From Vitellaria paradoxa (taxonomy: Eukaryota; Streptophyta; Magnoliopsida; Ericales; Sapotaceae): a DNA stretch of 64,000 nucleotides. Shown here piece after piece: positions 12,738 through 57,700 of this stretch (position 1 is its first letter; the number at the start of each line of letters is the position of its first letter). The position numbers and the translations under genes were made by a program. Under the pieces are notes generated by a model. It searched no databases. It worked only from the letters and a program-made list of their open reading frames with translations, and had not been told where the DNA came from. The stretch covers positions 9,399,223-9,463,222 of the forward strand of contig CM034241.1 in the NCBI GenBank assembly GCA_019916065.1. Direction: 5' to 3'.

Positions 12738-15700
12738 TCAAACCCTTAATCCGGCGGTGTACTTGACACCCGTTGACGGCAACCAATCGTTCCCCAGAAT
12801 AAACCGAGCCACCGTGAATTTGCCGGCCTCGGCCGAGTCATTAATGGCCCGGAAACCCGGCCACTTAACCCGGCGATCGAGCCCAGCCCCGGGCCCATAA
12901 TTCAAGTACTCGCCGTAGAAGAGCGTGTCGAGTGCGAAATTCCCATTCCACTCCAGCCACCCTTCAGGTCTAATGGCGTTGCTCATGAAAGATTGCATGA
13001 ACACCGTCCTCGAATAGAGCTTCCACGGCCTTCCGAGGTACGTCGGCGTGGAGTTCACCGAAGATCGCGCCTCCGGCTCCGCAGATACGTTCGAGAATTG
13101 GATTATGAATCCCGTGGGCTCGGTCGGATCTTTCCGGCCTTGGGCGGTTATGGTGTTCTTCTGGTTCGGCAGGCCTTTTCTGGCTAGGATTTGGCAGTTT
13201 TGGAAGACGACGACGCCGTCGCCGAAGATGAAGTCCACCGTGCCGGTGATTTGGCATTCTCGGTAGAATTGGCGCATCGAATGTGCGTACAGCGTGTCCT
13301 GGTAGCCCCTTATGGCGCATCGGAATAGAACTGATAAATCGGAGTCCGATCGGAATGCCACGGCTTGGTGCTTCGCTGGGCCGGCCGTGTTCTGGAATGT
13401 GATGTCTCGGGCTATGAATCCTTGCCCTTTCGCGGCTGCACAAATTGATTTAACGAAAAATATTATTAGATTGGGAAAAAAAATTATCAGAAAGTGAATT
13501 AAAATAATATGAAATTGCTATTAAAACTATTTAATTTTTAATCTAATTTATTAAAATAATAAAAGTAAAAGTAATATGTGACAAATTTGATTGAAAAAAG
13601 TTAAAGAAAATTAGTAAAAATTAAATATTTTTTTCTTTTTTTTTTGAGAATTTCAACACCACCTACATTTTGATTTTTTTTTCCGAGCGCATTTGAAGTT
13701 CTATAAAATTATATAAATATTTACAATTTTTTATAAAATTTAGGTGACATTTGATTTATTTCTCTATTTTCTGTTTTCTGTTTTCATTTGATGTTTTAAA
13801 AATTTCAAAGTAAAAAAAAATAGAAAATACTTTATTTTCATTATTTTGAAATTTTTTTTATTTTGGATTAAAAACGCTCAAAATGATTTTTTGTCATTTT
13901 TCATTTTATGTGTAAACTCATTTTCTGTTTTTTAAAACAAATTTTGAAAACACAAGTGGCCAAATGTATTTTGAGTTTTTTCCTTGTTTTCAGAAGTATA
14001 AAATGAAAAATAAGTTTAAAATAAAAAATAAAAAACAAAAACACAAAATAAAAAATAGAAAAACAAACCAAATGAGCCTTTATTTTTTTTTTTTTGTTTT
14101 CTATGAAAAGTACGATATTATAATTTTTACAAATTTATAATAATTTTTATAAACCCAAACACGCCCCTAAGCTTCAAATTAATCTATTAGCTCAAAGGGT
14201 CTCCACTCCACCACAGCCCTACTAATTAACGAAGAAACTGCTCCTCCCTCTTAAGATTTATAAGGGGCACAAAACTTTTAAGCAATTCACGTGAGATGAG
14301 TTAAAAAATGGTTAAAATACATTTAGGGTTCATTTGGTGTTTTTATTTTGAATCTGCTTTTTATTTTGCATTTTTTAAGAACAATAAAAACAGCTTAAAA
14401 TATAATTAATGATTTGTATTTTCAAAATTTGCTTTAAAAAGGAGAAAACGAATTTATGCATAAAATATAAAATGATTAAAAGCCATTCTGAGCCTTTTGT
14501 CCCAACATACGGAGAGTTTTAAAATACAAAAAATAAAAAATACCAAAATAAATATATTTTTAATATTCTTAAAATATGAATTTTAAATAGAAAATAAAAA
14601 ATTAAAAACAAACAAAACCAGAAGTAGAGTTACAAACCAAATATCATGATTATGTAAATTCACGAAATTGGACCGACGTGTCACATTAAAATTAAGGTTG
14701 TGTTTGGTTTGTTAAAATATTTTAAAAATATTTAAAAATTTGTAAAAATTATCTACTTTTTATTTCACTACAAGAATTACGAATTTATAATTTATTTTAT
14801 TTTATCTTATTTTTTTTATCACTCCAAACAAATATACCGTCAATCATGTATAAGATTGAAATTGACAAATAAAAGTAGAAAGCCAGATAAATGCAACTTA
14901 GGCTTGCACAAATAAATAGACACATACAAATAAAATAAAAATCTTAACGTACGCACCAAATGTTGCAGAGCGATAGGTGGTCCAACCATCGATAAAATTC
15001 CGATTACCAGAAATAACAGTAACGTCCATACCGTCGCCGACCATCATGATGTTCCATTTCTTCTTGCTGATCTCGACGTACTCATTGTACACGCCCTTCT
15101 TAATGTATATGACAAAGCGGCGCGTGCTGTGATCTGGGGCGGCTGACACCGCATCCATCACCTTGGTAAAGTTGCCACTCCCATCCACCGCCACCACCGC
15201 ATCGGCCGGCGACACCCGATTTCTATTTGCTTGCAAGAGTTTTCGATCCTTGGGCGTGACCCAGTACGGGAAGTGGTCGCCGGCGCCGCTGCTCCCTAAA
15301 TTCCTCCCCCGTTGGTCGCCGCCGCGGACCTTTGTGAGAATGTTATGGACCAACGAGGTGAGTTGATTGAGACTCCCCGCCACTAAGTTCTTGACGACGC
15401 CGTTGGTGCCGTCAAATCCTTCCATGCAGGTCTCTTGATTACCCAGAGCCGCACTCAGCCATGTCCTCAGATCAGCACTTAGATTCCCTGTGCTGTTATA
15501 CTTACCTGAAAATTTTGTACAGTGAAGCTGATCAATCAATCTGTCTTCCCCTGCTAGAGTTATCATAGATCCACTTGAAAATAGACAGGGAATTTAGCCA
15601 TCTACTGGAGGAAGAATAAAAAAAAAGAGGAATAATTAAGATTTTTGTTGCGTTTGAAGGTATAATTTTTAACCCAAAAAAAAAAAAAAATCAATTTTTT

Positions 15701-36783: not shown

Positions 36784-39700
36784 CTGAAAATAACAATAAT
36801 AATAATAATAAATAAATAAATAAATAAGAGAATCAGATTTACGGGTAACAACTGACTGGCGGTCTGCATACTAGTAGCAAGTTAAGAGCATGCATTCATG
36901 ACTCTTTGAGATCTTTTTTCTCAATAGAACAGTGATATCAAGTGGATGCATCTATATGTGCAATACTTGGTTAAACCAGACTACAGAGTTCATTCAATCT
37001 GCAACTTCTAATTTAGGCTCCATTTGGGAAGTCTCAGCTTTCACTTAGCTTTTTGGCTTTTTTGGAAATGATCAAATTTATTTCCTTACATTTTAAACTT
37101 TTTTTTTTTTTTTTTCTCAAATCATAAAGGACAAAAATGTCAAATTAACCAAAAAAAAAAAAAACTAGCTACTAAAATGTTAGATTTTTTTTCTTCCCAA
37201 ACTAAGCCTTATTATTTTGTGGACCGCTTGCTTGAGTGTTACAACGGCAGCCGATAATGATATTATTCGTTCCTTCAGCAGATCTCAAACATCATACCCT
37301 GATTTGTAAGAAGAATTTAACTTAAAATCATCTAATCGTCAGCTATATTCTAATACGCTATGGCATTAGCTATTGGAATTTGACAGCAAACAACCACCAG
37401 AAAGGACATTTTTCATTTGAGCAAAACAAGGCAATTTATTAAATATGAATTATCAAATTTTCAGCTGTTTACACCATAGCATCAGCTATAAGCTTTTTCC
37501 AGCCAAAAAACTACCTGATCTAATATTCAAAGCGGTCAAGAGACCAACGCGATATGGTTGGTGGTTGTGTTCTATAACCGATGACAGTGGATCAGTCATA
37601 CCACAAACATCTTCAAACAGTTTCTGTTCTATGTACAAAGGGAAATTTTCAACATCCAAACAATCTCGCCTTTTTCCTTCGGATGACCACCAGAAACATT
37701 AATGCTATGTTTGGAACATGAATTTATGAAGGGAAAGGGAAAGTGAAGGAATATTGTGGTAATGCAAAATGAAGTGAAAAAATCAAATTTATTTTATTTT
37801 ATTTTTTACCAAGTTAGAAAAATGAGATTAACATGAATATATATTTATCAACAAAATTTAACTTTTATTTGGTTAAGTAAACAAAAATTTCATAAATTAT
37901 AAATTTTATTTTCCCTTCATTGTTTTCTTTCACTCCACAATTCCATATTCCAAACATAACAAGAAGGAAAGAGCAGATGCATGCAACGGTGTCTAGAACA
38001 AATCAAAACCAAAGGAAATCAATAAGAACAGCAAAGAATTAGCTAATCCTTAAACCGAGCACCATGATTATCACTGGGCCTGGGGGGTGTTGAGGGAAAA
38101 AAAATCAAGACATATGCTGTTGCAGTAATAAACCACCTTGAATTTATAATAAATAGTAATGTACACAATTCTAGATTTTCAGCTTATTCAATCTGACAAG
38201 ACTCACCTTTAGTTAGGTGATAATATAGCCAACAATCTGCTGTTATCATAAGATCATATGCTTCTCACTAACAAGCTCAGATTTGTGGAAGGTCTATTTA
38301 ACATCGTATGGTGGAAATTAAAAATTTTGGATACCTATGTCTGAATAAGTAGGTCACAGAACTCTACCATAAATATGGTATTGAAACAAATCAGATAAAG
38401 GAGGTTAACTGTTGTAGGGGCAGAGATTTTGGTCCCTACAACTATACATATTTTTCAATATCAACTGAAAGATGGAAAAAGGAAAAGGAAAGGAATCAAC
38501 CAAAAGATGGAAGAGGGGAAAGGAAAGGATAGTCTGGGCAGTATAATAATCGATGTTCAACTAAAAATAAAAGGTTGTAGGATAATCGCATATTCAAATG
38601 AAAAATAAGTGGGAGATTACCTGTTCACAACATACAAGTTTAGTAATGAAGGGATAGAACTGTCTCAAGTGTTTTCGGAATATCTTGCTGTTCATATAGC
38701 ACATGCCTTTAAGAACCTGAAAGACCAGAAAAACAGGTAGCTCTCTTACTGCTCAAGTTCATTAGAACGAACAATCAGTACAAGAAAAACTTCTCTCCTT
38801 TCAACTCGCAATGATACAAACGACAGTTAGGGAAGCAGATAATCACATCAAATAAGAACACCAGAATAAAAAAGAGGCAACGAATAAAATAAATCCCACA
38901 AAATTAAGGCACATATTTGTCAAACAGCAATCTGTAAAAATTGAGTCAAATGGAGAGATACATGTAACTGACAGCATAAGTGAAGACTGAAGAGGCAAAG
39001 AATCAAGACAGAGAACATTAAATGAAGAAAATTATGTGTAGAGACTATAGCGGCAAAGAATCAAGATAAAAACATTAAAGGAAGAAAATTATGGGCCTGT
39101 TTTTCAGTGCAATGTTTTTCTTCATTGATTTCTAGAGTTGAGCCCAAAGAAGGATTTGACTTGGAGGAAAATAAATCAACTAAGCTCATCCTTAGTGCAA
39201 AAGTATACTAGTTTAGCTACAACAAAAATTCTACAGAACACCTAGAAGGCCTGCTAAGTTCCACTGGACAAAAGTTTGGTCAGCTAAGAACCATGCAACT
39301 GAACACCAAAAAATTGTAAATGTAGCTCTTAGCAAACTTTGTTTAACCGGAATCCCCACGAATGCATTGATTTAGCTGCAGTCAATTTACATGATCCCAA
39401 CTCACTGACTCATGGCACCATGGTAATCTGTTCATAGGAGAGAATGGATTGTCTTCTGTTATAAGCATTATTATTTTTTTTTTAGTAAGTAAAAATTGTA
39501 TTAAATGGCATCAAAGGATGCCTCTCAAGTACCAAAAAATGACCTGATTATGAAAGTTAGGGTGTATCTCTATGTCCAATGAAATAAAAAAAACTATGTA
39601 GATGCGGGTCTTCACCCCCGCCGAGCCAACTATACAAAATAAACAAAAAAATGTTTTTCATTCTACATAAAGAATTCCCTATATCTTGAAATTCCTTCTA

Positions 39701-42700
39701 TTTCTCTCCCCCCATGCCACCCAAGAAAGAAAGAGTGGTACTAATCTCCACACTTCCTTCTCTTGCCTACTCCCCACCACGAACTGAAAGCCAGTTTCAC
39801 ACTCGAGGGGAAGACCAACTGTACCCAAAACAATTGAGAATCAACTCCCAAATCTCCCTCATTCAACCGCAATAAATAAACAAGTGATTGATAGACTTTG
39901 CCTTCCCTTCCCTTTACACAAGCAGCATTTATTAACCAAAACCATCATAAGTATCCTCCCTAAAGTATGAACTGAACCAAAAAGGCCACTTTGGAGGCAT
40001 TTCATCTCTCCGAATATTGAGCAAGGGAATTCTTCCTCCCGGCTTCCCTCCAGTCTTTTGTAAAAGGACTTCACCTCAAACTTTCCCGAGCTTAATCCCA
40101 CCCATTTTATCCCATTCTCCCCTTCCACCCTTTTGGCCTTGTGAAGGCACAAGATCAACCTCCTAAGTATTATAATTAGGGTATATTGTTTTCATGTAGA
40201 TGATTAGGGTTTTCTACGGTTCATTTTCTATTTTGTACAGATCTCTTAATTATTACAAAAGTAAATTATACCTAGCATCCTTACAAATCTCACTTCAGGG
40301 CTTGTACCTCAAATCATCCCACTTTGCCCCTTCTGTAATTTATCATTAAAGAAATTGATAGAGAATGCAAACGTGTCAATCGAAAACAATGAACACACAG
40401 TGTTTCCCTTCAATAAATTTGACAAAAGGGGGCAAAGTAGACAATTTAAAGTATAAGGAATAGAATGAGACAATTTAAAATATATGGGCTACCATGAGAT
40501 TTGAAGGTACATATGTACAAAATGTAGTTTACCCTTATGACAAATAGAAGCCTAGGCTCCCAATTTTGGGTGCCATTTTCCCAAATCTTTACATCTTAAC
40601 ATATTAAGAGAGCCAGGAATCAAAACCCTTGCCACCATCTCAGTGTTATAGTAGTTGTAGCCCTACCTTAGATCTATACGGACCTTTTCTTATTTTATCT
40701 TAGAGCTACAATAATTCCTAGCCCTATCGTACTTGTGTTTTTCCTTTTGAAGTTGGAATTGCAACCAACCACCATACCAAGACAATTGTCAGAGCCGGGC
40801 AAATCTCACTGACCAGGTCTAACAACCACTAGAGGGTTCAAACGAGTCATTGTGCCACAAGTGCTCCACAGTTGATCCATTATCTTTTCCCCTTTCCTGA
40901 CATCATAGTAGTAAATCCTACTCACCAAATGTCCTGCTAGAGCTAGGCGAGTATCACTGCAGAAGACTGGAAGTATTAGAGGCGTCACATGCTCACACAC
41001 ACCAGCTATGGTCAACATGAGTGATATGTACTTGCAGTCCCCTCTAGCGCATCGGCCAGTTGTGTCATAACCTAAGAAGCACGGATACTTCAAAATGAGT
41101 GCTGTATCCGTATTCGATTCATATCGGATACACATACTCTTCGGATACTTCAAGATACATATTGAATACACCACATGACGTATCCTATTATTTTATAATT
41201 TTTTCAAATATATGATTAAGACAAATCTAGATTTGAATAGTTGAAACTCCTGAAATTATAAAATCTTATTACTTATATTTTGTTATATTTTGTATATTGA
41301 ATTATATATTAAATTAATTTTATTGTGAATGTTATACTCATATATATAACTAATAAAAATATACAAAATTTGTAATTTTTTGATCGTATCCCTGCCGTGT
41401 CAGTATCCTCATTTTTTAAAAATTGCCGTATTCATATCCGTACCCGTATCGCATCCGTATCCCGTATCCGTATCCATACTTCTTAGGTCATAACCGCTAA
41501 AAAAGCAAGGTCACCTCCCCCCGACAACCCCATTTTGACAAGTCCCACCAATGACAGGCTACCAACAACCTTTGTTTGACTTCCAAAAACTTCTGCTCAA
41601 ATTCATTAGGCTTCAAGGACCCCAATTTTTCTATATAGAGCCACTACTTGGTGTTCACCCATTAGACCCAAGTCTTGGGCTCCTTTTTTTGGAGACAATT
41701 GTCACAGGAACTTGATTTTATTTTGAGCCTAATATTTATTCTATCCCAATGATTGTCAACTATTGTTCTTATGTGAACAATGTTCACAAGAGCTTTATTT
41801 TGTTTGAGGCCTAGTATTTATTCTCGTCGTTAATTGTTGGCAATTGTTCTTTCTCGAACAATGGTCCCATAACCTAGTTCTACTGATGAAACATCTAGAA
41901 TCAGATTTTGGTGATCTTATTGCCAGAATCTTCTAGTAGGTTGTGGATTTTGTTTGCATTAAATAAGGAGTCCAAAAATCAGTCCAATGTATTAAATAAG
42001 AAGACTAAAAGGCAGTCCAAAACATTAAATATTTTGAATGTTCTAGAGCTGTAGGTTGCCTATTACAAATAGGGAATACTTGTAAGCGTTTGGGGGCAAT
42101 GAAAAGTTTAATTTGAGTTATCCTTGATTTATTTCCAGCAACCAGCTTACTTTCATTTGGTACAGAACTGATTTTCAGATCTGTCCAAGGAGGTGGACTC
42201 TTCCTCCATTGTCATTTCTTAACCCTTATTACCTCAAACTTTTCCTCGATTCCTTCACAACACTATTAACCACTAAAAATCCAGATTTTCCTAGGTTAAT
42301 TATCTCTAAAAACAGTCCTATTTGCACTAGTTTAATTCAGATTTTCTGGGTTGCATTAGTCCATTAAATCTGAATTTTCTGGGAGCTGCATCAGTTTGGT
42401 ATCAGAGTTGCAGACTGTTTGTCCACTTATAATTCCAATGGTGACTCAAAGTGGAAGGGATTTCCGAGGAAGATTTACCGATCGCCAAAGAGATGAATTG
42501 CTGGAGTATTTCTCTCAAGAGTTGTAGATGTTTTCGAGTAGAGTTGATGATTTAGAAGCATGAAGAGAAGCAACATCACTCAATCAAGCTGCAAGAAAAA
42601 ATGAAGGCGATGCTGATCATCAAGAAGTTCTAAATGAAGATCAAGATGCTGAAAATAATGTTGCAGCACCTATAAGAGTTGCACCTAGACCTACCCCATT

Positions 42701-45700
42701 TAATAGAAATCATCAACACAACTGAGCTCCTATTTTGGATGCTTACAGGCAGCGTATTAGACCAAATGATGATTACAATGACATTACTAACAAGGTGAAG
42801 GTGGATGTTCCAAGCTGCTCCAAAAAGCATGATCCTCACTTCTTCAATGATTGGATTGTGGCAATGGAAGATTATTTTGAATGGTATGGAATGTTCGAAG
42901 ATCGTAAAGTCCGGTTTGCAAAAATGAAGTTAAAGGGGCAAGCACATATGTGGTGACGTAGTATTGAAGATCGCATGAATAGACTTGGTCTACCTCCTAT
43001 TCTTCATTGGGAGGAAATGAAATGAAGCTACAAGAAAAGTATCTTCCTCTTGATTATGAAAATTCAATCTATGAAGAGCCATTGCAATTAAAGGAAGGTG
43101 CAATGACAGTTGAAGAATACACAGAGAAATTCAATAATCTAACAGTTCGATGTCAACTTAATAAGGATGATCGTCACGCTACAAAATAGGGCTGCATGCT
43201 GAAATCAAACGAGAAATGACAACCGTGCATTTTTTCAATATCGATGAAGCTTACCAAATGACTTTAAAAGTGGAATAGCAACTCCAACTATCACAGGTCA
43301 AGCGTTTGGGATCTCAAGCAGGAACTTTTGTTGCCAAGAGACCAAATCCTACAGTCCATTTAGCAACCAACAATGTGATTACTCAGAAAAATACATCCGA
43401 AGCTACACACTTCAAAGGAAGATATGTTGCAGGAAATTCCAACAAACAAGGTAAAGAAACCGAGTGTTTTAAGTGTGGTGGAAAGGAACATTTTGCATCA
43501 ATGTATCCTACAAAGAATCTAAATCTTTGTAAAGAGGAGGACACAATGGGGAATCAACAAGAAGATGCAGAACCACAGATTGAAGCACAAGAAGATGACG
43601 TAGATGATGTTGAAGGATTAAGACAGGTGACGATGGTGATGCGGCGTCTCTTGACAACATCAAAGGAAGCAACCACAAATGATTGGCTTCGTACAAATAT
43701 CTTTCACACAAATGTGAGCTATGGAGATCAGATTGTAAAGCTCATCATTGATGGAGGAAGCTGTGTAAACGTTGCTTCACAAGCGCTTGTTTTTTTTTTT
43801 TTTTTTTGGGGTAATTATCACAAGCGCTTGTTGATAAACTCAAGCTCAAATCCCGGGAGCATCCAACACCATACAAGGTTGCTTGGATTAATGACACATT
43901 CATTCCAATCAACAAGCAATGCCTTGTGATCTTTTTGATTGGAGATCGTTACAAAAACACCATTTGGTGTGATGTTATTCCAATGAAAGTTGCTCACATT
44001 TTGTTAGGACAACCTTAGCAATATGATAGAAAAGCTTTGCATGACGGAAAGACTAACACCTACGCATTTTTGTACGAGGGAAGGAAGATAAGGTTATTAC
44101 CAATGAGAGATAAGAAGGTCCAAGCCAGCCAAAGGAAAAACTATTCACACTTTGCCAGTGAAGCAATTTGTAGGAGAATCTGAAAGAGTGGGTGTTGTTA
44201 ATGCTTTGGTTGTTCATGAGAAGCAAGAAGACAACCAACAAAATAAACTAGCACCTGAAATGAATGAACTATTATCAGAATTTTAAGATTTATTTGGTGA
44301 AGAGTTGCCAAAGGGGCTGTCATCAATGCGGGATATCCAACATACCATCGATCTTGTACCTGCAGCATCACTCCCAAACTTACTAGCCTATCGGATGAGT
44401 CCAACAGAGCATGAAGAATTAAGGAGGCAAGTAGGAGATCTTCTGTCTAAAGGCTTTATTAAGGAAAGTCTCAGTCCATGCGCTGTTCCAGCACTGTTGA
44501 CACCTAAGAAAGATGGAAGCTAGAGGATGTACATTGATAGCCGAGCAATCAATAAAATAACAATCAAGTACTGGTTTCCCATACCAAGGCTTGATGATAT
44601 GCTTGACTTGATGATTGAAGCGACGACATTTTCCAAGATCGATCTTCGAAGAGGATATCATCAAATTAGGATTCGTCCCAGAGATGAATGGAAAACTACA
44701 TTCAATACAAATGATGGCCTCTATGAATGGTTGGTGATGCCATTTGGGCTTACCAATGCTCCAAGCACTTTCATGAGGGTAATGACTTATATTCTACAAC
44801 CATTATATTGGAAGGTTTGTTGCTCTATATTTTGATGATATTCTAATTTACAGCAGTAGCAAGGAAGCGCATCTAGACCATTTGAGACAGGTCTTGACAA
44901 CTCTACAATTGAAAAAGCTCTATCCCAATTTGAAGAAATGTCAGTTTTTAACTGATCAAGTAAATTTCTTGGGGTTTGTTATCTCCTCTAAAGGTATTGC
45001 AATTGATCCAGAAAAGATCAAGGCCATTCTTGAGTGGCCGACTCCCAATTCCATAAGCGCAGTCAGAAGCTTCCATAGTTTGGCTACATTTTATCGGCGA
45101 TTCATTCGCAACTTCAGTTTTATTATGGCACCAATTATTGAACGTCTCAAGAAAGGAGATTTCTGTTGGACGAAGGGAGCTAATAAAGCTTTTCAAGAAA
45201 TAAAGGCAAGGATGATGACAACGCCCGTGCTTAAGCTTTCCGATTTTGATAAGATATTTGAATTAGCTTGTGATGCTTCACATATAAGCAATGGTGCAAT
45301 CTTTAGTCAAGAAAAACACCTTATTGCCTATTACAGTGAGAAGTTAAATGAGGCAAAGAAGAAATATTCTACCTATGACCTTGAGTTCTATGCTGTGGTA
45401 CAAGCTATCAAGCATTGGAAGCACAATTTGTCCTATAAAGAATTCATTATTTACTCATATCATGAGGCATTGAAGTATCTAAATTCCCAGAAACATCTTA
45501 ATGCTAGGCATGCAAAGTGGAGCGCATATCTACAGCAATTTTCTTATGTCATAAAACACTGTTCGGGGTTTGAGAATAAGGCGGCAGATACTCTCAGTAG
45601 AAAGGCTGCTTTGTTGGTTGTTATGTCCATTAATGTGGCTAGTTTTGAAGAAATAAGAAAGGAGTACCCAAGTAATCCATATTTTGGGGCAATCTACAGA

Positions 45701-48700
45701 GATTGCAAGCAAACCTTGTTATGAAGCATCCTTATTTCAACTTGAAAGGTGGTTACCTCTTCTATGGTAATCAATGTGTTTGCCCAACACCTCCATTCGT
45801 GATTTTGTTACATGGGAGCTACATTCAGGACGTCTTGTTGGACATTTTGGAAGGGACAAGATAGCTACCCTAGTGGAGGATCAATTTTATTGTCCGCGAT
45901 TAAGGCGTGATGTGAAAAAGATTATTCGACAATGTCGCATTTGCCAAGTTTCTAAGGGTTACAAGCAAAACATGGGGTTTTACACACCCCTTTCAACGCC
46001 TCAATTATCTTGGGAAGACTTATCTATGGATTTTGTTTTGGGTCTTCCAAAGACACCGCGAGGATTTGATTCAATCTCTATGGTGGTAGATCGGTTTTCC
46101 AAAATGGCTCATTTTCTTTCTTGTCGGAAGACATTAGATGCATCAAAAGTTGCTCAAATATTCTTCCGTGAAGTGGTGAGACTACATGGTCTACCAAAGA
46201 CAATAGTCTCTGATCGGGATGTTAAATTTGCAAGTTATTTTTGGAGAACTCTATGGAAACTTATGGGCAGCCAACTAAAGTTTTTTAGTGCCTATCACCC
46301 ACAAATCGATGGACAAACTAAGGTGATTAATAGAAGTTTGGGCAATCTTTTACGCTGTCTTGTGGAAGAAAATGTACAATCATGGGATCTTATTTTTCCA
46401 ACAGCAAAATTTGCTTATAACTCCTCAGTCAATCGATCTACGGGTCGCTCTCCATTTGAGATTGCTATAGGTTTAAAGCCACGATAGCCCATTGACTTAG
46501 TGTCATTACTTGTTGATGCTAGATCTAGTCAAGAAGCTGAGGAATTTGCCAAACATATTAAAAATGTTTATGAGGAAGTTCCTAAGAAGATTGCATTGCG
46601 TAATGAGCAATATAAAAGTGTTGTATATGAACACAGGAGGTTTGTAGAATTTCAAGTTGGGGATAATGTCATAATTCGCCTACGACTTGAACGTTTTCCA
46701 AAATGGTCATTTCAGAAGCTTCATTCAAGGAAGGCTGGTCCATTTAAGATACTTAAGCATCTTGGAACAAATGCTTATCTAATTAAGCTTCCAGAGGAGT
46801 TTAACTTCAGCCTTATATTTAACGTGGAAGATCTTAGTCCATACAATGGGGATGATAGAGGTGCAAGTAAAGATAAGATCACTCATCGTCTTCCAAAATG
46901 CCAAACGAATCAGGTATAATTGAAGATATTCTAGATGAGCAAGTTATCACAACAAGGCGCAAGAATTACAAGAAAGTCCTAGTAAGGTGGAAAGGCAAGC
47001 CAATATCAAAAAGCACTTGGATTACTGCTTTCAGATTTTCAGCGCATCGATCCAAAACTCCTTGGAAGATATCAAGCTGTAAACTCGTCAAAGACAAGTT
47101 TCCTCCAACCAGGGGAGAATTGATGAAACATTTAGAATCATATTTTGGTGATCTTATTGCTAGAATCTTCTAATAGGTTGTGGATTTTGTTTGCGTTAAA
47201 TAAGGAGTCCAAAAGTCAGTCCAATGTATTAAATAAGAAGACTAAAAGGCAGTCCAAAACATTAAATATTTAGAATGTTCTTGAGCTGTAGGTTGCCCAT
47301 TATAAATAGGGAATACTTGTAAGCATTTGGGGGCAATGAAAAGTTTAATCTGAGTTATCCTTGGTTTATTTCCAACAACCAGCTTACTTTTATTTGGTAT
47401 TTCAGATCTGTCCAAGGAGGTGGACTCATCGTCATTTCTTCACCCTTATCACCTCAAACTTTTCCCCAATTCCTTCACAACACTATTAACCACTAAAAAT
47501 CTATATTTTCCTAGGTTAATTATCTCTAATAACAGTCCTATTTGCACTAATTTAATTCAGATTTTCTGGGTTACATCAGTCCATTAAATATGAATTTTCT
47601 TGGAGCTGCATCATCTACTTTGGAGAGTTTGTTGTTCTGGCCCAATTCATCTTTTGGGTTAAGTGTTTTTAGAGCCACTATATTTTGTTTGTTACTCTAC
47701 CTAATGCAATCCAAATTTAGAAGTTTATCTTCAATCACAATCACTTTGTCCAGCTTCCACAAGTTCCTCAATTAACCATTTGAAAGTTGAATGAGAATAA
47801 TTATACTCCATGGGTCAAGGCAATTTTTGGCAAAGAGAATCACCTAACAAAAACTGGTCCAACAAAGGTGAAGGCAAAAACATAGGCCCAGGAAGCTGCT
47901 CGGGTTTCCAGTGCCTTGGGGAATTCTATGAAACTATGCATTTCCATGTCTCAACACATCCAAGGAAATATAAGATTATTGCAGACTCCTCTTCTCTATT
48001 GACCTTACTTGCACATACAATTTATTCTATGAATTTTTCATATAGAACAAAATAGCGACCTGTTTTGTTGAATACTTTACTTCCTTACAATAACAACATA
48101 AGGAATTAAATGTCCAATAACCTATCACAACAAATGTTTGTGCCATGTAATTGTAAAGGGAACTATTAGCACTCAAATTTCTCACAGGTCTTGAAACAAG
48201 AAATAAGAATCCTTCAGACAATGTACAAATTTTCAAAACACTCGTTGAAAATAGAATCCCACTCACAAAACTTGCTGAAAATTGTACAACTGTCCTCCAC
48301 AATACAACTAATGTTGTTACTACCAAGTCGTCTCCACCTACCTCTCTTTCTTTCAACAACTGTAACATTTCCATTACTAATAAGGAAAATTCTACAGTTG
48401 AGAAAGTTGAGAAAAAGGGAGAGATTGAAATTGAATTCTCTCGTCTCCCTTGAATATTATTTATAATGAAGGTTTACATCAAATTAGGAAATAGAAAACT
48501 AGGAAATTAGGAAACCAAATCAATCACTCCTATATGCTAAACAAACATATCTATATTCTAAGGAAATTAAGCATATATTCTAATATATATGTTCTATATT
48601 CTAACACGATCCCTCAAGCTGGAGCATATAAGTCAAAAATGCCCAGCTTGGATGTGAAACTCTGAAATGCAGAACGAGATAATGGCTTGGTGAGAAAATC

Positions 48701-51700
48701 GGCCAGCTGAGAAGAAGAGCGAACAAATGGAGTACTCAACTCCTTGCGGAGCAGCAAATCACGTATAAAATGACAATCAACCACAATATGTTTTGTACGC
48801 TCGTGAAACACAGGATTATTGGCAATAAAGATAGCAGCTTGATTATCACAATACATTTCCATAGGAGCAGGAACTTCAATACCAAAATCCCGAAGAAGTG
48901 ACCGAACCCAAAGCATTTCAGACGCAGTGTGAGCCATAGCACGATACTCAGCTTCAGCACTAGAACGAGCCACAACCTGTTGTTTCTTACTACGCCATTT
49001 AACTAAATTACCACCAACAAAGATACAATAACCCGAGGTGGAACGCCGATCATTCCGATTACCAGCCCAATCAGCATCACTATAACCAGTAACACATAAG
49101 GAGGAAGAGGAACGATACAAAAGTCCACGTGCAGGAGAATGCTTCAAATACCGTAGAATCCGACACACAGCCTCAAAATGTGGAAGACGAGGACTATGCA
49201 TAAATTGGCTGACTACCCCCACAGCATAAGTGATATCAGGACGAGTAACAGTGAGATAAATGAGCTTGCCCACAAGTCGACGGTAACGACCCACATCAGA
49301 AAATGGCTCGCCCGAAGTAGCATCTAACTTAGTAGATGGGTCCATAGGAGTATCAACAGGACGGGCACCGAGAAGACCAGTTTCAGAGAGTAAATCCAGC
49401 ACATACTTGCGTTGACAGAGGGAGATGCCTTGTGAAGAGTGGGCAATTTCAATTCCAAGAAAGTAACGAAGTCGACCTAGATCTTTGGTATGAAATTGAG
49501 TAGCAAGATACTGTTTCAAATCCACAATACCCGTGATATCATCACCAGAAATAATAATGTCATCAACATAGACAATTAATATAATAGTTCCAGAAGATTG
49601 TCGTCGTACAAAGACTGAATGATCAGCAGTAGAACGAGTATACCCAATATCAAGGAGAACAGAGCTGAAACGATCAAACCAAGCCCTAGGAGATTGTTTT
49701 AGACCATATAAAGCACGCTGTAAACGACACACAAGATGCTCACTACCAGGGATACTATAACCAGGAGGTTGATCCATATAAACTTCTTCCTGTAGTTCGC
49801 CATGGAGGAATGCATTCTTAATATCAAGCTGATGTAGAGGCCAAGAATGACTTGCAGCAACAGCAAGAAGAATCAAAATTGAATTCAGACGAGCAACAGG
49901 AGAGAAAGTCTCAGAATAGTCAATACCATACATCTGAGTGTAACCTTTGGCAACCAACCGAGTTTTAAGGCGCTCAACTGAACCATCTGGAAGATACTTA
50001 ACAGTATAAACCCAGCGACAACCAACAGTTCGTTTGCCAATAGGTAGAGAGGTGAGTTCCCATGTCTGATTTTGATGAAGAGTATGCATTTCTTCATCCA
50101 TTGCGTGTTTCCATCCCGAAATAGACAAGGCCTGTTGATAAGTAGAAGGAACAAAAACAGAAGACAAGGCACAAATAAAAGAAGACAAGGAAGAGGAAAG
50201 CCGATGGTAAGAGACAAAATTAGCAATAAGATGTTGAGTGCAAGTACACTTACCTTTTCGTAAGGCAATGGACAAGTCAGGAGAAGGAGAATGATCTTCA
50301 TCAGAATCAGGTACCTCAGACGAAGGGGTGTGATCTGGCGGTAAGGGAAGAATGACCTTTCGATCAGGATCACGTCGATAAACCTGTTGCAGAAGAGCAG
50401 GAGCAGGAGCAGAAGGTTCAGCCTGAACTAATGGTTCTGAAGCTGTGAAGGGATCAGTGGTAGGAGTGAGTGAGGTAGACTTGGGTATGGGAACATAGGT
50501 GGAAGATAAAGGGGCAGGAAGAGTAGGGGAGTGCGCTCCCTCACGAAAAACAATGAGATCAGGAGATAAGAGGTCACCACTAGAAGAAAAGAAAGGAGTA
50601 GATTCAAAAAATGTGACATCGGCACTCACAAAGTAACGTCGGGAAGGAAGGTGATAACAACGATAACCTTTCTGAGTGCGGGAATACCCTAAGAAGACAC
50701 ACTTACGAGAACGAGGTGAAAGTTTGTCTTGATTAGGATCAAGTATATGAACAAATGCAACACAACCAAAAGTACAAGGAGAAAGAGGAAAAGGTGACCG
50801 ATTGGGATAAAGAAGAGAAAATGGAGACTTATTTGACAATATTGGTGTAGAGACCCTATTAATTAGATAACAAGCAGTAAGAATAGCATCTGCCCAAAAA
50901 GATTTAGGGACATGCATATGAAACATTAGGGTACGAGCAATATCTAACAAATGACGATTTTTGCGTTCAGTAATACCATTTTGTTGAGAGGTGCGAGGAC
51001 AACTAATTTGGTGGATAATGCCCCTATCAGTACAAAAGTTATGAACAACCGTCTGAATATATTCCAATGCATTATCAGAACGAAAGACTTTAATTCTTCT
51101 GTTGAATTGAGTAACAATTTCATTGTAAAAACGAGAAATAACAGAAGGTAAATCAGACCGTTATTTAATTAAAAAAAGCCATGTCATTCGAGAAAAATCA
51201 TCACCAAATATCACGAAATATGAAAAACCATTAACACTAGAAATGCGGGAAGGGCCCCAAACATCTGTATGAACAATATCAAAAGGTTCAGACGCACGAC
51301 TAATACTACGGCTAGGAAAAGAACTACGGCGATACTTGCCAAGTTGAAAAGCCTCACATTCAAGACTAGACACTGAACTAAAATTAGGAAAAAGTAGCTT
51401 CAACCGAGCTAAACATGGAAGACCAAGACGAACATGCCACTGGAGAGGGGAGACAGAGGTGTGGAGAACTGTGGTAGTTAGCTTCTCTGGTGGACAATCA
51501 CGATTAAGATAATAAAGGCCATCCTTCTCATGCCCCGAACCAATCATCTTCTTCGTCGTGAGGTCCTGAAAAACACAAGAAGTAGGGAAGAAGGTTATGG
51601 AACAATTTAATAATTTGGTTAACTGATTGACAGAGAGTAAATTAAAGGGAAAGTGTGGTACATAAAGACTAGAAGAGAGATTAAGGGATGATGAGGGATG

Positions 51701-54700
51701 AAGAGTCCCTCTACCAGACACAGGACGAGAAGAACCATCAGCTAACACAATACTATGATTAACATTACGGAGGTTAGAGAATAAGGAGGAATTACCAGAC
51801 ATATGCGAGCTAGCTCCCGAATCGATGATCCAAGAGGGAGAAGAGGAGACTACAAGAGCTGGTTTACCTGAGTTAGCCAAAGTAGCAGTGGAAGATGAAG
51901 GATTAGAAGCACGCAAGTATTGAATGAGCTCTTGAAGTTGTGAAGCGCTTAAGGTTATTGTCTCCTGAGAATCAGACGTGGTAGCTCCATTATCAGACGC
52001 TGGAAGTGACAAAGTAGCACGGTTAGAGACATGGTGGGCTTGTTCAGGCTTACCATATTTCTTCCAACAGTAAGGCTCAGTATGATTGGTACCACCGCAA
52101 AAATTACACTTGCGGTCACCTCGACCATTTGATGAACGTCCTCCACCACGAGAATCACTACGAGTAGTACGTCCACCACGAGTGCCACGAGAATTACCTT
52201 GGGAAGAACTTCCTCGATTATGTTGACTAATAAGTGCTGAAGAATCAGTAGAAGTCACTGAATGATCATTCGCAATGGATGGATGGCAATCCAATGATGA
52301 CCTTTGTATACGGGCATAAGCACTGGCAGCAGTAGGAAGAGTTTCACTAGCTAGAATTTGATCTTTAAAGCCTCGAAGTGCAGGATTAAGGCCAGATAAA
52401 AAGTTTGCAATCATGAATTCTTCCCAATACTTCCTTTGCTGTGTTAAGTCTTCACTAAACGGTCTGTATTGTAATAACTGCTCCCATAAACTCTTCAAGT
52501 GACTATAGTAATCAGACAATGATCTCTCGCCTTGTTTTGCAGAGAACATCTGCTCATACAACTCATAAACTCGAGAGATATTACTTTTCTGGGAATATGA
52601 TTCTACAAGACAATCCCAGATCTTCTTAGACGAGTCACAAAACTCAACAGTGGTAGCAACTGAATCCTCCAGACTATGCCATAATAGCCCCATAACAATT
52701 GCATCGTCGCTCATCCAAACACGATACCGAGGATCAGTGGACGAAGGTGGCTCATCAGTAATATATTATAACTTGTCCTTTCCTCGAAGAAAGGTCTTCA
52801 CAGCATGTGCCCAACTCAAATAATTCTCACCATTTAATTTTTTGGTGTAATAGAACGAGGAACATCATCTGCCTTTAAGAATACAGATTGAGGCATGATT
52901 GAAGTAGTATCTTCAGATTTTGACATGTTAATAAATCTCTAGCACAGTCGTCAAATAAAGAACCAACAAAGAGACCTCCGCAACCGTAGAACAAGAGTGG
53001 TAACCAACAAATAGACCTCCGCAACCGTAGAACAAGAGTGGTTAACCAAACCAACAAATCAACACCCCAATGGCAGCAAAGAAATCAGAACAAACCAGAA
53101 TGGAAGATCTGATCTCGAACAAGAAGAAATCAGAAAAAAACAGACAGTTGCGGAAGACAGAGACGAGAACGACCATGCTTACATCCAAATCAACTACCCA
53201 TCAAGCCAAAAGGCAGCAAAAAAGGTCGCCTGCCCTAGGCGAGCTCCGGCAAGGGTCGCCGGAAACTTCCCGGAGGGAGACGCGCCTGCACGCGCCGAGA
53301 GAAGCCTCGCGCATGGAATCTGGACGCCTCGGAAGTCCCGCGCGTGAGGGCGCGTGGCCTACCGGCCGGTGACGACTCCGGTGGGGTTGTGATCGTCGGC
53401 CACCGGCGATCCTTTTGGAGTGGTCGGACTTCAATTCCGACCGCCGGAGAGTTGTTCGCCGGCGATGAACAGTGCTGCTACAGTACCGTTAGGGTCTTTT
53501 TTTTTTTTTTTTTCTCTTTCTAACAGGGCTGCTACAGTTAGGGTTTTTTTTTTTTTTTTGTGGAACCAGAGTTTGCTCTGATACCAAGTCGAGAAAAAGG
53601 GAGAGATTGAAATTGAATTCTCTCGTCTCCCTTGAATATTATTTATAATGAAGGTTTACATCAAATTAGGAAATAGGAAACTAGGAAATTAGGAAACCAA
53701 ATCAATCACTCCTATATCCTAAACAAACATATCTATATTCTAAGGAAATTAAGCATATATTCTAATATATATGTTCTATATTCTAACACTGACAACCCGT
53801 CAAATGTCTCATTCTATTGCCTCCCTTGTCCAAAATGGTAATTTTATTACTTGGATTCTTTATTTCTCTCCTCCAATCATGTATCAGGTAATTCTATTAT
53901 TCTCTCCAACGTTCAATATGAGAAGGATCTTATTGCGGTCACCTTTGCCAATGGTCCTCTAAAGGCATGACTGAGATTAACAAGGCTCATCCTACTTCTA
54001 TTTCTTTATCTTTTGTCTTCTATATTCCCTCCCTTACTTTCGATCTCATATCTATTAGCCGTCTTTACCAAACAACATAATTATATTGTAATTTTCTTTC
54101 TTTAGTCTGTCATGATCTATGATTTTAAGTCTAAGGGAAGTATCAGAGGAGGGCGAGAAGATGACAGATATACTTTCTTGATCTCAACCATTCATCTACC
54201 CCGTGTGCTATTGTTGCTTCACCATTCGAGATTCATTGTTGTATTGATCATTCATCTTTAGATAATTTGAAGTTGTTAGTTCCTAGTTGGAGCCATTAAA
54301 TTGCTTACAATGTGAGTCTTGTTAATTGAGGAAGCATCATCGTGCTTTATATGTTGCATTATATCCATTTTTTAGCTAGTCCATTTTGATATTTGTGGTC
54401 CAAACCAGATAATTTCAAAGTTGTATTTTCAGTATTTTGTTTGGTTTGTTGATGATGATTATTCTTGAAATACATGATTTATTTAATGAAAACTAAATGA
54501 GTTGCTTTTTATTTTTCATGCTTTTTGTACAGAAATTCAAACTCAATTTAATACCCCCATTCATATTCTCTACAATGACAATACCCATGGATATTTCTAT
54601 AGACTTTTTCTTTTTGTTTTGTGGCCGAATCTAGCATTATACGCCAATACTCTTATGGTCATACTCCAAAGTAGAATGGATTGGTTGACGTAAGAATCGT

Positions 54701-57700
54701 CACCATATTGAGACTTCTTGTTGCTCTCTTTTAGTGCATGTTCCCACCTCATTACGTGTTACCTTATAAATTACATGCCTATACTCCCCTGAACCAATCA
54801 CTCCATTCTCCTTTTCCTTGTGATCCAACCTTTCATAATCCACCACATCTTAGTATATGTGTTAACTTCGTTCATCAATTCATACCAGACATTGATAAGT
54901 TGGACCTTCATGCAATCAAATACATGTGCTTTGGATACTCCTGTTCTTGTAAGGGTTACTGTTATTATAGTCCTACTTTAAATCACTTTTTCACGTGTTG
55001 ACATTACATTTCTTGAATCCACACCTCCTTTTTTCAGTCAACCTTACTCTTTTGAGGATCCTTAAGTTGCCTTTTCCTTATCTATTTTACCTTTTGATCC
55101 CATCTCTCCTAATTTGGTCTCCCCTCCATCCAGATTTCTGGTCTACCACTAGCTTAAAGGCATCCCTTCAGCTTTAGCCATTAGCTCCTTCCACCTCCCG
55201 CTCACCATTAATCTCTCTACAATCCTCATATTCTCTTTTGTCTGGTCTTAATATTCCAATTGCTCTTAGGAAAGGCAATCATACATGTACATCCCAACCT
55301 TAACCCTAAATTGAAGCCCTACCTCAATGTGGATGTGCTCTACTGCAAAAGGGGAAATGTTTGCACCCTGAGCTAATGGTACTTAGGACGTTGCAGTTAA
55401 AGTTCTTCTTGATGGTAGTGTTGTTTGTCGCAAGGCCTGTCTTGTGGCAAAAAGATATATACAGGTGTATGGCCTAGACTTGAAATGTTTTCTCTATTTT
55501 TTGTTTCGCCTTATTCTTTTTCTAGTCGTCATTTTCCATTAACCACTAGATCAACTTGATATCAATCCAAGGCAATCTTGAGGATGAGGTGTACATGGAA
55601 ATATGATATTGTGAGAAAGTAAAAGCAAACATTAGTGGTCCGATTAAGTGCACAATACATCTTACAAGAACTTGGAGTGTCACACACATCTCGCATGGGA
55701 TTTACGCGTGATAAGCAAGCAATAATGTGCAATTACAGCAAATCTAGTATTCCATGAGAGAACAAAGTACGTTGAAGTGGATTGTCATTTTGTTTGTGGA
55801 GAACTCCTCTAGAATGTAACAAAGACGCTCATGTGAAGTCAGAAGATCAAACTCTCAACCTTTTTTTTTTTAATAAAGCTTTAGGGGGTACATGGGTTAC
55901 ATAAACATTTGCTCCATTTGAGAAGTGTCTAAAGTAAATAAGTATCATAATTAAGGTATTTATGTCTTTATGAAGATAATTAGGGTTTTCTACTTTTCCT
56001 TTCTAATTTGTATAGATCCCCTATTTATTATAAATATAGGCCCCCAATCCAAGTTTTGGTTGTCTAATTTTCCTAAATCTCCACACTTCAACATCTTCAA
56101 GACAAAAGTTATCAGACAGGAACTTAACCAGGGGCAGTGAGGAATTGATTTCTTGGCTTTGATTGAACAACATATTACAGGAAAGTAAGAAGACAAATAT
56201 TAAGAAATATCCATACCTTAACAATGATTGGGGAACGTAATTCTAGAACTCGATGAATATCCATATTAGCAGTATCCCCCATACTGGACTGGAAATCAGA
56301 CGCCTCCTTGAGCACCTGTCTACAAAAGGACACTAGTTTCTCTTCTGCTATCGTCTCCAATTTCTCCCCGAGACCAGAAGATTCAACAGGATTAGAATCA
56401 CTTCTAACTGATGTATTATCCACATCCTGACAAACATTGTTATCAATTTGGTCTCCTCTGTAAGAATCAACCTCTGATGTTGTCTTCTGTAAGATATCCA
56501 AATAAATGCAAGTTCCGGCTAGTTCCTGGCGAAGAAGATTCAAAGGTGGCCTGTTCAACCATAAAGTAAGTTATGAAACAAGGTTATTGCAGTTTACGGA
56601 CAACAAATTTAGTGGCAAGAGATAAACATAAGAAAATTAACTCGGAAATAAAAGCGAAGCCTACCTTTCAGCAGGTATGTGGTTCATCCGCAACCTGAGG
56701 TTTGTATATGAATTATAAGATGCAGCAAACTCTAACACGGAGAACAAAGTGTCCATTATGGTGATCTTTTGTGATGTCTTCAACTTGTTCCAGTATTTCT
56801 TCTGCATATTAAATAGATCCCAATATAAAATGTCTTTTCGTTTCACAACAAAAGGAAACAGCTCTCGTATACCTTTTGCCCCATCAATTGATACATGCCT
56901 CTCAATATCTCTACCCAGGTATATCTTCCCTTATATTTCTTTTCTTGCAAAGGGGAAGTAAGCTTTGAAGAATAACGTACTTGGATGTCATTTCTAACTT
57001 ATCCCCAAGTTGTAACCAAACTTTCGCTGTCCTCCACATTAGCACCTTTTAGCTTCTATGTGATAATATATATAATCTTCACATATTTCTACAGGGCCCT
57101 CGATGTTCGGGTGGTTTAAAAAGTTTTTCTTTTTAACAGAATAGTTCAATGCACACATCCACCCGATCTTGTTGATGGCCATCCCAAGCTTAATGATTGA
57201 ACTTGTGAATTTTGCTATTTAAAACAAAGAAAATGGGGCCACACTGTGAATCCTCCAGTCTTTTATTGTGACAAACATAGATGTAGGGCCATAAACTATA
57301 TAAGCCTAGTTTTCCATCACTTGAAAGTAAATGGTGTAAATGGAAAATCTTCAATGTCTATAAAGAAAGAGATTACATTTGATAGAAATTATGAAAAAAA
57401 AAAAGGTAGATTTAGAGAATGGGCAAGAAGTGGTGACTTGTCTTTGTTACAGGTACACAGAAAACTCTTAAACGCGTTTTAGGATGCATTGTTCAGATAA
57501 TAAAATTATTGGTTAAAAATCCTGGGTATTAATAAATCCTATCAACGATTACATATTAATTCTGTCACCTTGAAAATTTTGTCCCTTGGCACACACCATT
57601 AGTTAATGGGGATGTCCATCATTTTTCTGGAAACGCAAAGAAAAGAACCTGATTTGGGGGACTACAAAGATTACATTATACTAGAATTATATTCACAGAA

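Follow-up and report, generated by a model that had tools for sequence, protein, structure and literature searches.

Long terminal repeat (LTR) elements nested within the intron of an active plant gene have already been published. For maize, one report describes a gene, represented by a full-length cDNA, in whose intron a copia and a gypsy element are nested, dates that copia to 615 thousand years and gives 18,487 bp as the longest intron of its gene set (PMC2773423). For Arabidopsis, two further reports describe IBM2/ASI1 and EDM2 as handling intronic heterochromatic transposable elements (TEs) and holding off cryptic polyadenylation (PMC4417168, PMC10241880). Here we describe a locus of this known kind, and a good example of it, in a 64-kb stretch of Vitellaria paradoxa DNA (the window) on contig C9 of a genome of 667 Mb and 71 contigs. 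Within the window, a BIG5-type ADP-ribosylation factor guanine nucleotide exchange factor (ARF-GEF) gene carries an intron of 17,500 bp, against 18,487 bp for the longest in the maize gene set. Its host element is older than the age given there for the maize copia and holds five direct guests, and we found no closer precedent than the maize case in the literature searched. With the Arabidopsis cases it shares a block of intronic TEs that needs to be transcribed through and spliced out. At the present locus the junction, the elements and the order of LTR divergence are directly observed in the sequence.

The evidence makes it highly probable that the 17.5-kb intron consists of one old antisense copia plus later guests. 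An ordinary intron of about 0.86 kb, close to where the gene ends, would have taken in the antisense copia long ago; this element may then have become a harmless landing site, later receiving the 3′ end of a long interspersed nuclear element (LINE), two miniature inverted-repeat transposable elements (MITEs), a Ty3 element and a second copia. Among the LTR elements this young copia, which lies in the sense of the gene, would by its divergence have come last, and a tiny retroposed tail would have entered the Ty3 element. The whole block would presumably be transcribed as part of the gene and spliced out as a single 17.5-kb intron. Splicing across it would work in the plant, the elements are likely to be kept in silent chromatin, and factors like Arabidopsis IBM2/EDM2 may hold off cryptic polyadenylation within it.

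The host gene lies on the minus strand, and its last three coding exons, at 56570–56217, 38716–38621 and 36783–36721, form one continuous reading frame that closes with a stop codon. The exon 5′ of the large intron ends in ...LRSPIIVK, its start being approximate and taken from the open frame; the next (VLKGMCYMN...CCEQ) is placed by the in-frame join, the Pfam profile and paralog read-through, and the last by the in-frame join and by the Pfam BIG2_C profile, which it follows up to position 176 of 177. The intron itself (38717–56216, minus strand) has standard GT/AG splice sites, with donor AAG/GTATGG and acceptor TTTCAG/GTTC. BIG2_C, the C-terminal domain of BIG-type ARF-GEFs, is present in the joined gene end, covering residues 10–161 of the joined 170 amino acids across both junctions (E = 8.9e-17). 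Taken alone, the 5′ exon matches profile positions 63–131 (E = 0.0024, under the curated cut-off by itself) and the two 3′ exons match positions 133–176 of 177 (E = 1e-6). Furthermore, in L005, a distant paralog (32 of 113 residues identical), a single frame continues across the 56217/38716 point. Compared with solved structures, the joined gene end gave one match, to a SEC7 protein of the same class (E = 0.0077), whose best stretch at residues 77–156 spans the junction but which is too weak for use. Because the exons join in frame, the splice sites are GT/AG, BIG2_C is continuous and L005 reads through, the intron is well supported at the sequence level; in that sense we regard the 56217/38716 junction and the 17.5-kb intron as confirmed, and an earlier note on this DNA, which had called the intron real from the in-phase join, agrees with the domain and paralog evidence. 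The gene is one that we provisionally place in the BIG5 rather than the BIG1–4 branch. No BIG5 paralog with a short intron was found in the genome search, which returned only the window gene and two distant relatives (32% identical).

Of this intron, 95% is occupied by the old copia at 39457–56093 (16,637 bp including guests), which runs antisense to the gene, begins with TG, finishes with CA and is flanked at both ends by the target-site duplication (TSD) TCTTC (39452–39456 and 56094–56098, read from the sequence). Its 5′ LTR (39457–40601, plus strand), interrupted by the LINE and a MITE, was delimited by LTR alignment and genome search. With these two inserts set aside, it is 83.9% identical to the 3′ LTR (55926–56093, plus strand) over 149 columns with several gaps, the differences comprising 15 transitions and 9 transversions (Kimura two-parameter distance, K2P, 0.184). 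The local alignment score of 74 compares with maxima of 21 among 1,000 base shuffles and 19 among 742 other windows of the same 64 kb, and a search of the genome with the 3′ LTR returned at least four other matches, including the 5′ LTR piece at 40164–40259. Single insertion of one copia bounded by TCTTC, as the earlier note had proposed, is thus borne out by the TSDs and the LTR pair; that note had named alignment of the segments beginning at 39457 and 55926 as a possible route to refutation, and the alignment instead revealed their homology. Removing the old copia and one TSD copy leaves 858 bp of intron, in keeping with the 0.86 kb estimated before. This presumed ancestral part contains direct repeats with a spacing of 57–58 bp at 38984–39093.

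The 3′ internal region of the old copia (53789–55925, plus strand) is degenerate. Translated searches (tblastn) with the frames of the young copia gave weak colinear matches, with best E values per stretch of 3.4e-5 to 1.2e-9, to the pre-integrase region, the integrase, part of the reverse transcriptase (RT) and the end of RNase H, all before the 3′ LTR. Three other loci keep the order of 3′ internal region followed by LTR, with a weak LTR match at one of them (E = 0.002). A short relative of the old copia lies at L064:4799–6214, where some 1.3 kb separates two LTR-like matches and a remnant of the 3′ internal region precedes the second.

Divergence between paired LTRs declines from the old copia (K2P 0.184) through the Ty3 element (28 differences in 494 columns, K2P 0.059) to the young copia (3 substitutions in 203 aligned columns), as had been predicted from the proposed history. 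The old and Ty3 pairs differ clearly (24/149 versus 28/494; Fisher P = 1.3e-4), and the Ty3 and young pairs differ with P = 0.044 or 0.006 depending on where the young LTR ends are cut (4/204 or 2/198), the refined count of 3/203 standing outside these tests. Nesting was less informative than the earlier note had supposed in taking the pattern of interruptions to reveal the order of events. All five guests (the LINE, the two MITEs, the Ty3 element and the young copia) are inserted straight into the old copia rather than into one another; because they lie side by side, nesting fixes only the old copia as first. Nesting also places a poly(T)-containing insert after the Ty3 element, and the order among the five guests rests on divergence. 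Three assumed rates give the old copia an age of 7 to 37 million years, a range not to be relied on.

All five guests that had been named before were recovered. The Ty3 element (41884–47615, plus strand), with broken frames, is flanked by the TSD TCTAC (41879–41883 and 47616–47620, 5 of 5 bases alike); Pfam matches to RT, RNase H and integrase fall on separate open pieces, with RT and RNase H before the integrase, between paired LTRs. In a genome search made with the 3′ LTR only, the best other match was the element's own 5′ LTR (91%), followed by one at 88%. Missing from the earlier list was a third nesting level, the 26-bp poly(T)-containing insert at 43792–43817 (minus strand), which lies in the Ty3 element between 15-bp direct repeats (43777–43791 and 43818–43832). 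Among 20 Ty3-family loci searched, eight cover this site, one being the window copy; the insert is missing in the other seven, where, from the match coordinates, the two sides meet with a single copy of the 15-bp repeat. It is probably a very short retroposed tail.

The 5′-truncated LINE 3′ end (39475–40163, minus strand) lies between target duplications at 39462–39474 and 40164–40176 (13 bp, 11 of 13 alike) that adjoin a poly(T) run. It has at least 47 other match rows in the genome, 23 of which start at most four bases from a shared 3′ end (40 scored of 133 candidates). Pfam found no match on the window's own LINE pieces, and a relative, L070, carries zf-RVT (1.3e-13). The family combines a common 3′ end, variable 5′ truncation, an A-tail, a TSD and, in relatives, an RT-associated domain. 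The Mutator-like MITE (40259–40534) has 9-bp TSDs at 40250–40258 and 40535–40543 (8 of 9 alike) and 37 other matches, 66–87% identical, across many contigs; a repeat search reported no terminal inverted repeat at its ends. The CTAAGAAG-end MITE (41072–41486) is flanked by an exact 8-bp TSD, GTCATAAC, at 41064–41071 and 41487–41494, and 28 of 40 other listed matches reach to within four bases of each end (40 scored of 1,767 candidates). It fits a hAT-like MITE, being short, with terminal inverted repeats, an 8/8-bp TSD and many copies sharing the same ends.

The young copia (48396–53788, minus strand, LTRs 48396–48606 and 53587–53788) was delimited from sister copies, and it was this comparison that set the start of its left LTR at 48396. 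Pfam matches to copia gag, RVT_2 and integrase parts lie on two separate open frames, the rve match alone falling under the Pfam cut-off. The left LTR exceeds the right in length by about one 9-bp unit (8 gap columns with the ends as chosen), and across the family this unit occurs in one or two copies at the LTR end (40 scored of 349 candidate places). In their own sense the family's LTRs end TG...CT rather than TG...CA, and no paper on LTR elements with TG...CT ends stood among those listed by a literature search. A 41-bp tandem duplication lies at 52961–53042, toward the 5′ end of the element.

Several observations weigh against the reading of one old copia with later guests. Position is the only ground for attributing about 1.64 kb of leader and gag sequence to the old copia, and three relatives that share its LTR and 3′ internal region have no match there. 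These segments are 40602–41063 (plus strand), after the 5′ LTR, and 41487–41883 (plus strand), between the CTAAGAAG MITE and the Ty3 element, neither matched in the three relatives, and 47616–48395 (plus strand), the probable gag region, with a tblastn match at E = 0.11 and no other copies found. The second of these contains degenerate direct repeats with a spacing of 81–82 bp. Much of the old RT and RNase H likewise found no match in tblastn against the young copia frames. Primer-site likeness after the 5′ LTR, judged against a relative (L038), was matched by 115 of 1,000 shuffles; not being above shuffles, this candidate was dropped. Finally, the young copia has no exact 5-bp TSD, being bordered by TCTAC (left) and CTGAC (right), whereas six of seven sister pairs have one.

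It is conceivable, on the strength of the three segments unsupported in relatives, that the stretch from the old 5′ LTR to the integrase region contains another, unrelated insertion, so that 17.5 kb would not quite equal the old copia and the listed guests. We consider this improbable in view of the matching TCTTC duplications, the paired LTRs in one orientation, and the integrase, RT and RNase H end that follow in colinear order ahead of the 3′ LTR; such an insertion would in any case merely add to the guest list. The earlier claim that the old copia and later guests account for the intron is supported, with the 1.64 kb placed by position. Somewhat more room, though still little, is left for the young copia having arrived otherwise than by simple insertion, either because two copies recombined or with flanking DNA being lost. 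Its unlike flanks and unequal LTRs would fit such an origin, and one sister pair (L011/L012) similarly lacks an exact TSD; here the sister pairs are the seven with both LTRs, recognized by distance, within the 40 places scored out of 349 candidates. In the other six the exact 5-bp duplications abut AGTTGAG...CTAACA. Against recombination, loss of one base from the left copy (CTGAC to CTAC) would reconcile the flanks, and in the pair L020/L021 the LTRs differ in length by the same 9 bp although the TSD is intact. A search of the genome for the empty site with joined flanks matched only the window's own two flanks. The element is filed as copia by its domains, and the missing TSD concerns its arrival or decay.

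A different doubt concerns the gene, which could be broken or could usually end at a cryptic intronic polyadenylation site, losing its last 52 residues, even with all the elements real. The intron is long, the young copia and LINE lie in the gene's sense, and the genome search yielded no second BIG5-type locus; in Arabidopsis, moreover, intronic TEs that lose their silent chromatin cause premature polyadenylation (PMC10241880). Against this, the frame of the three end exons is clean and their splice sites and domain match are intact, whereas identity between the old copia LTRs has fallen to 84%. This contrast suggests that the coding end has been preserved from the time the old copia inserted, and we consider a broken or early-ending gene very unlikely. 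Fainter still is the prospect that the gene-sense young copia makes BIG5 output depend on its silencing; were that so, stress or loss of silencing would yield a shorter BIG5 form without the end of the BIG2_C domain. An intact gene whose intron was filled by an old copia and its guests remains the reading we favour.

The locus compactly records a series of insertions that differ by degrees in divergence within one conserved gene and is a useful worked example, although it leaves the understanding of TE nesting and of long plant introns unchanged. Its insertions could serve as presence/absence markers in related species. Elsewhere in the window, an open frame on the minus strand at 12741–13517 reads like what we presume to be a pectinesterase exon.
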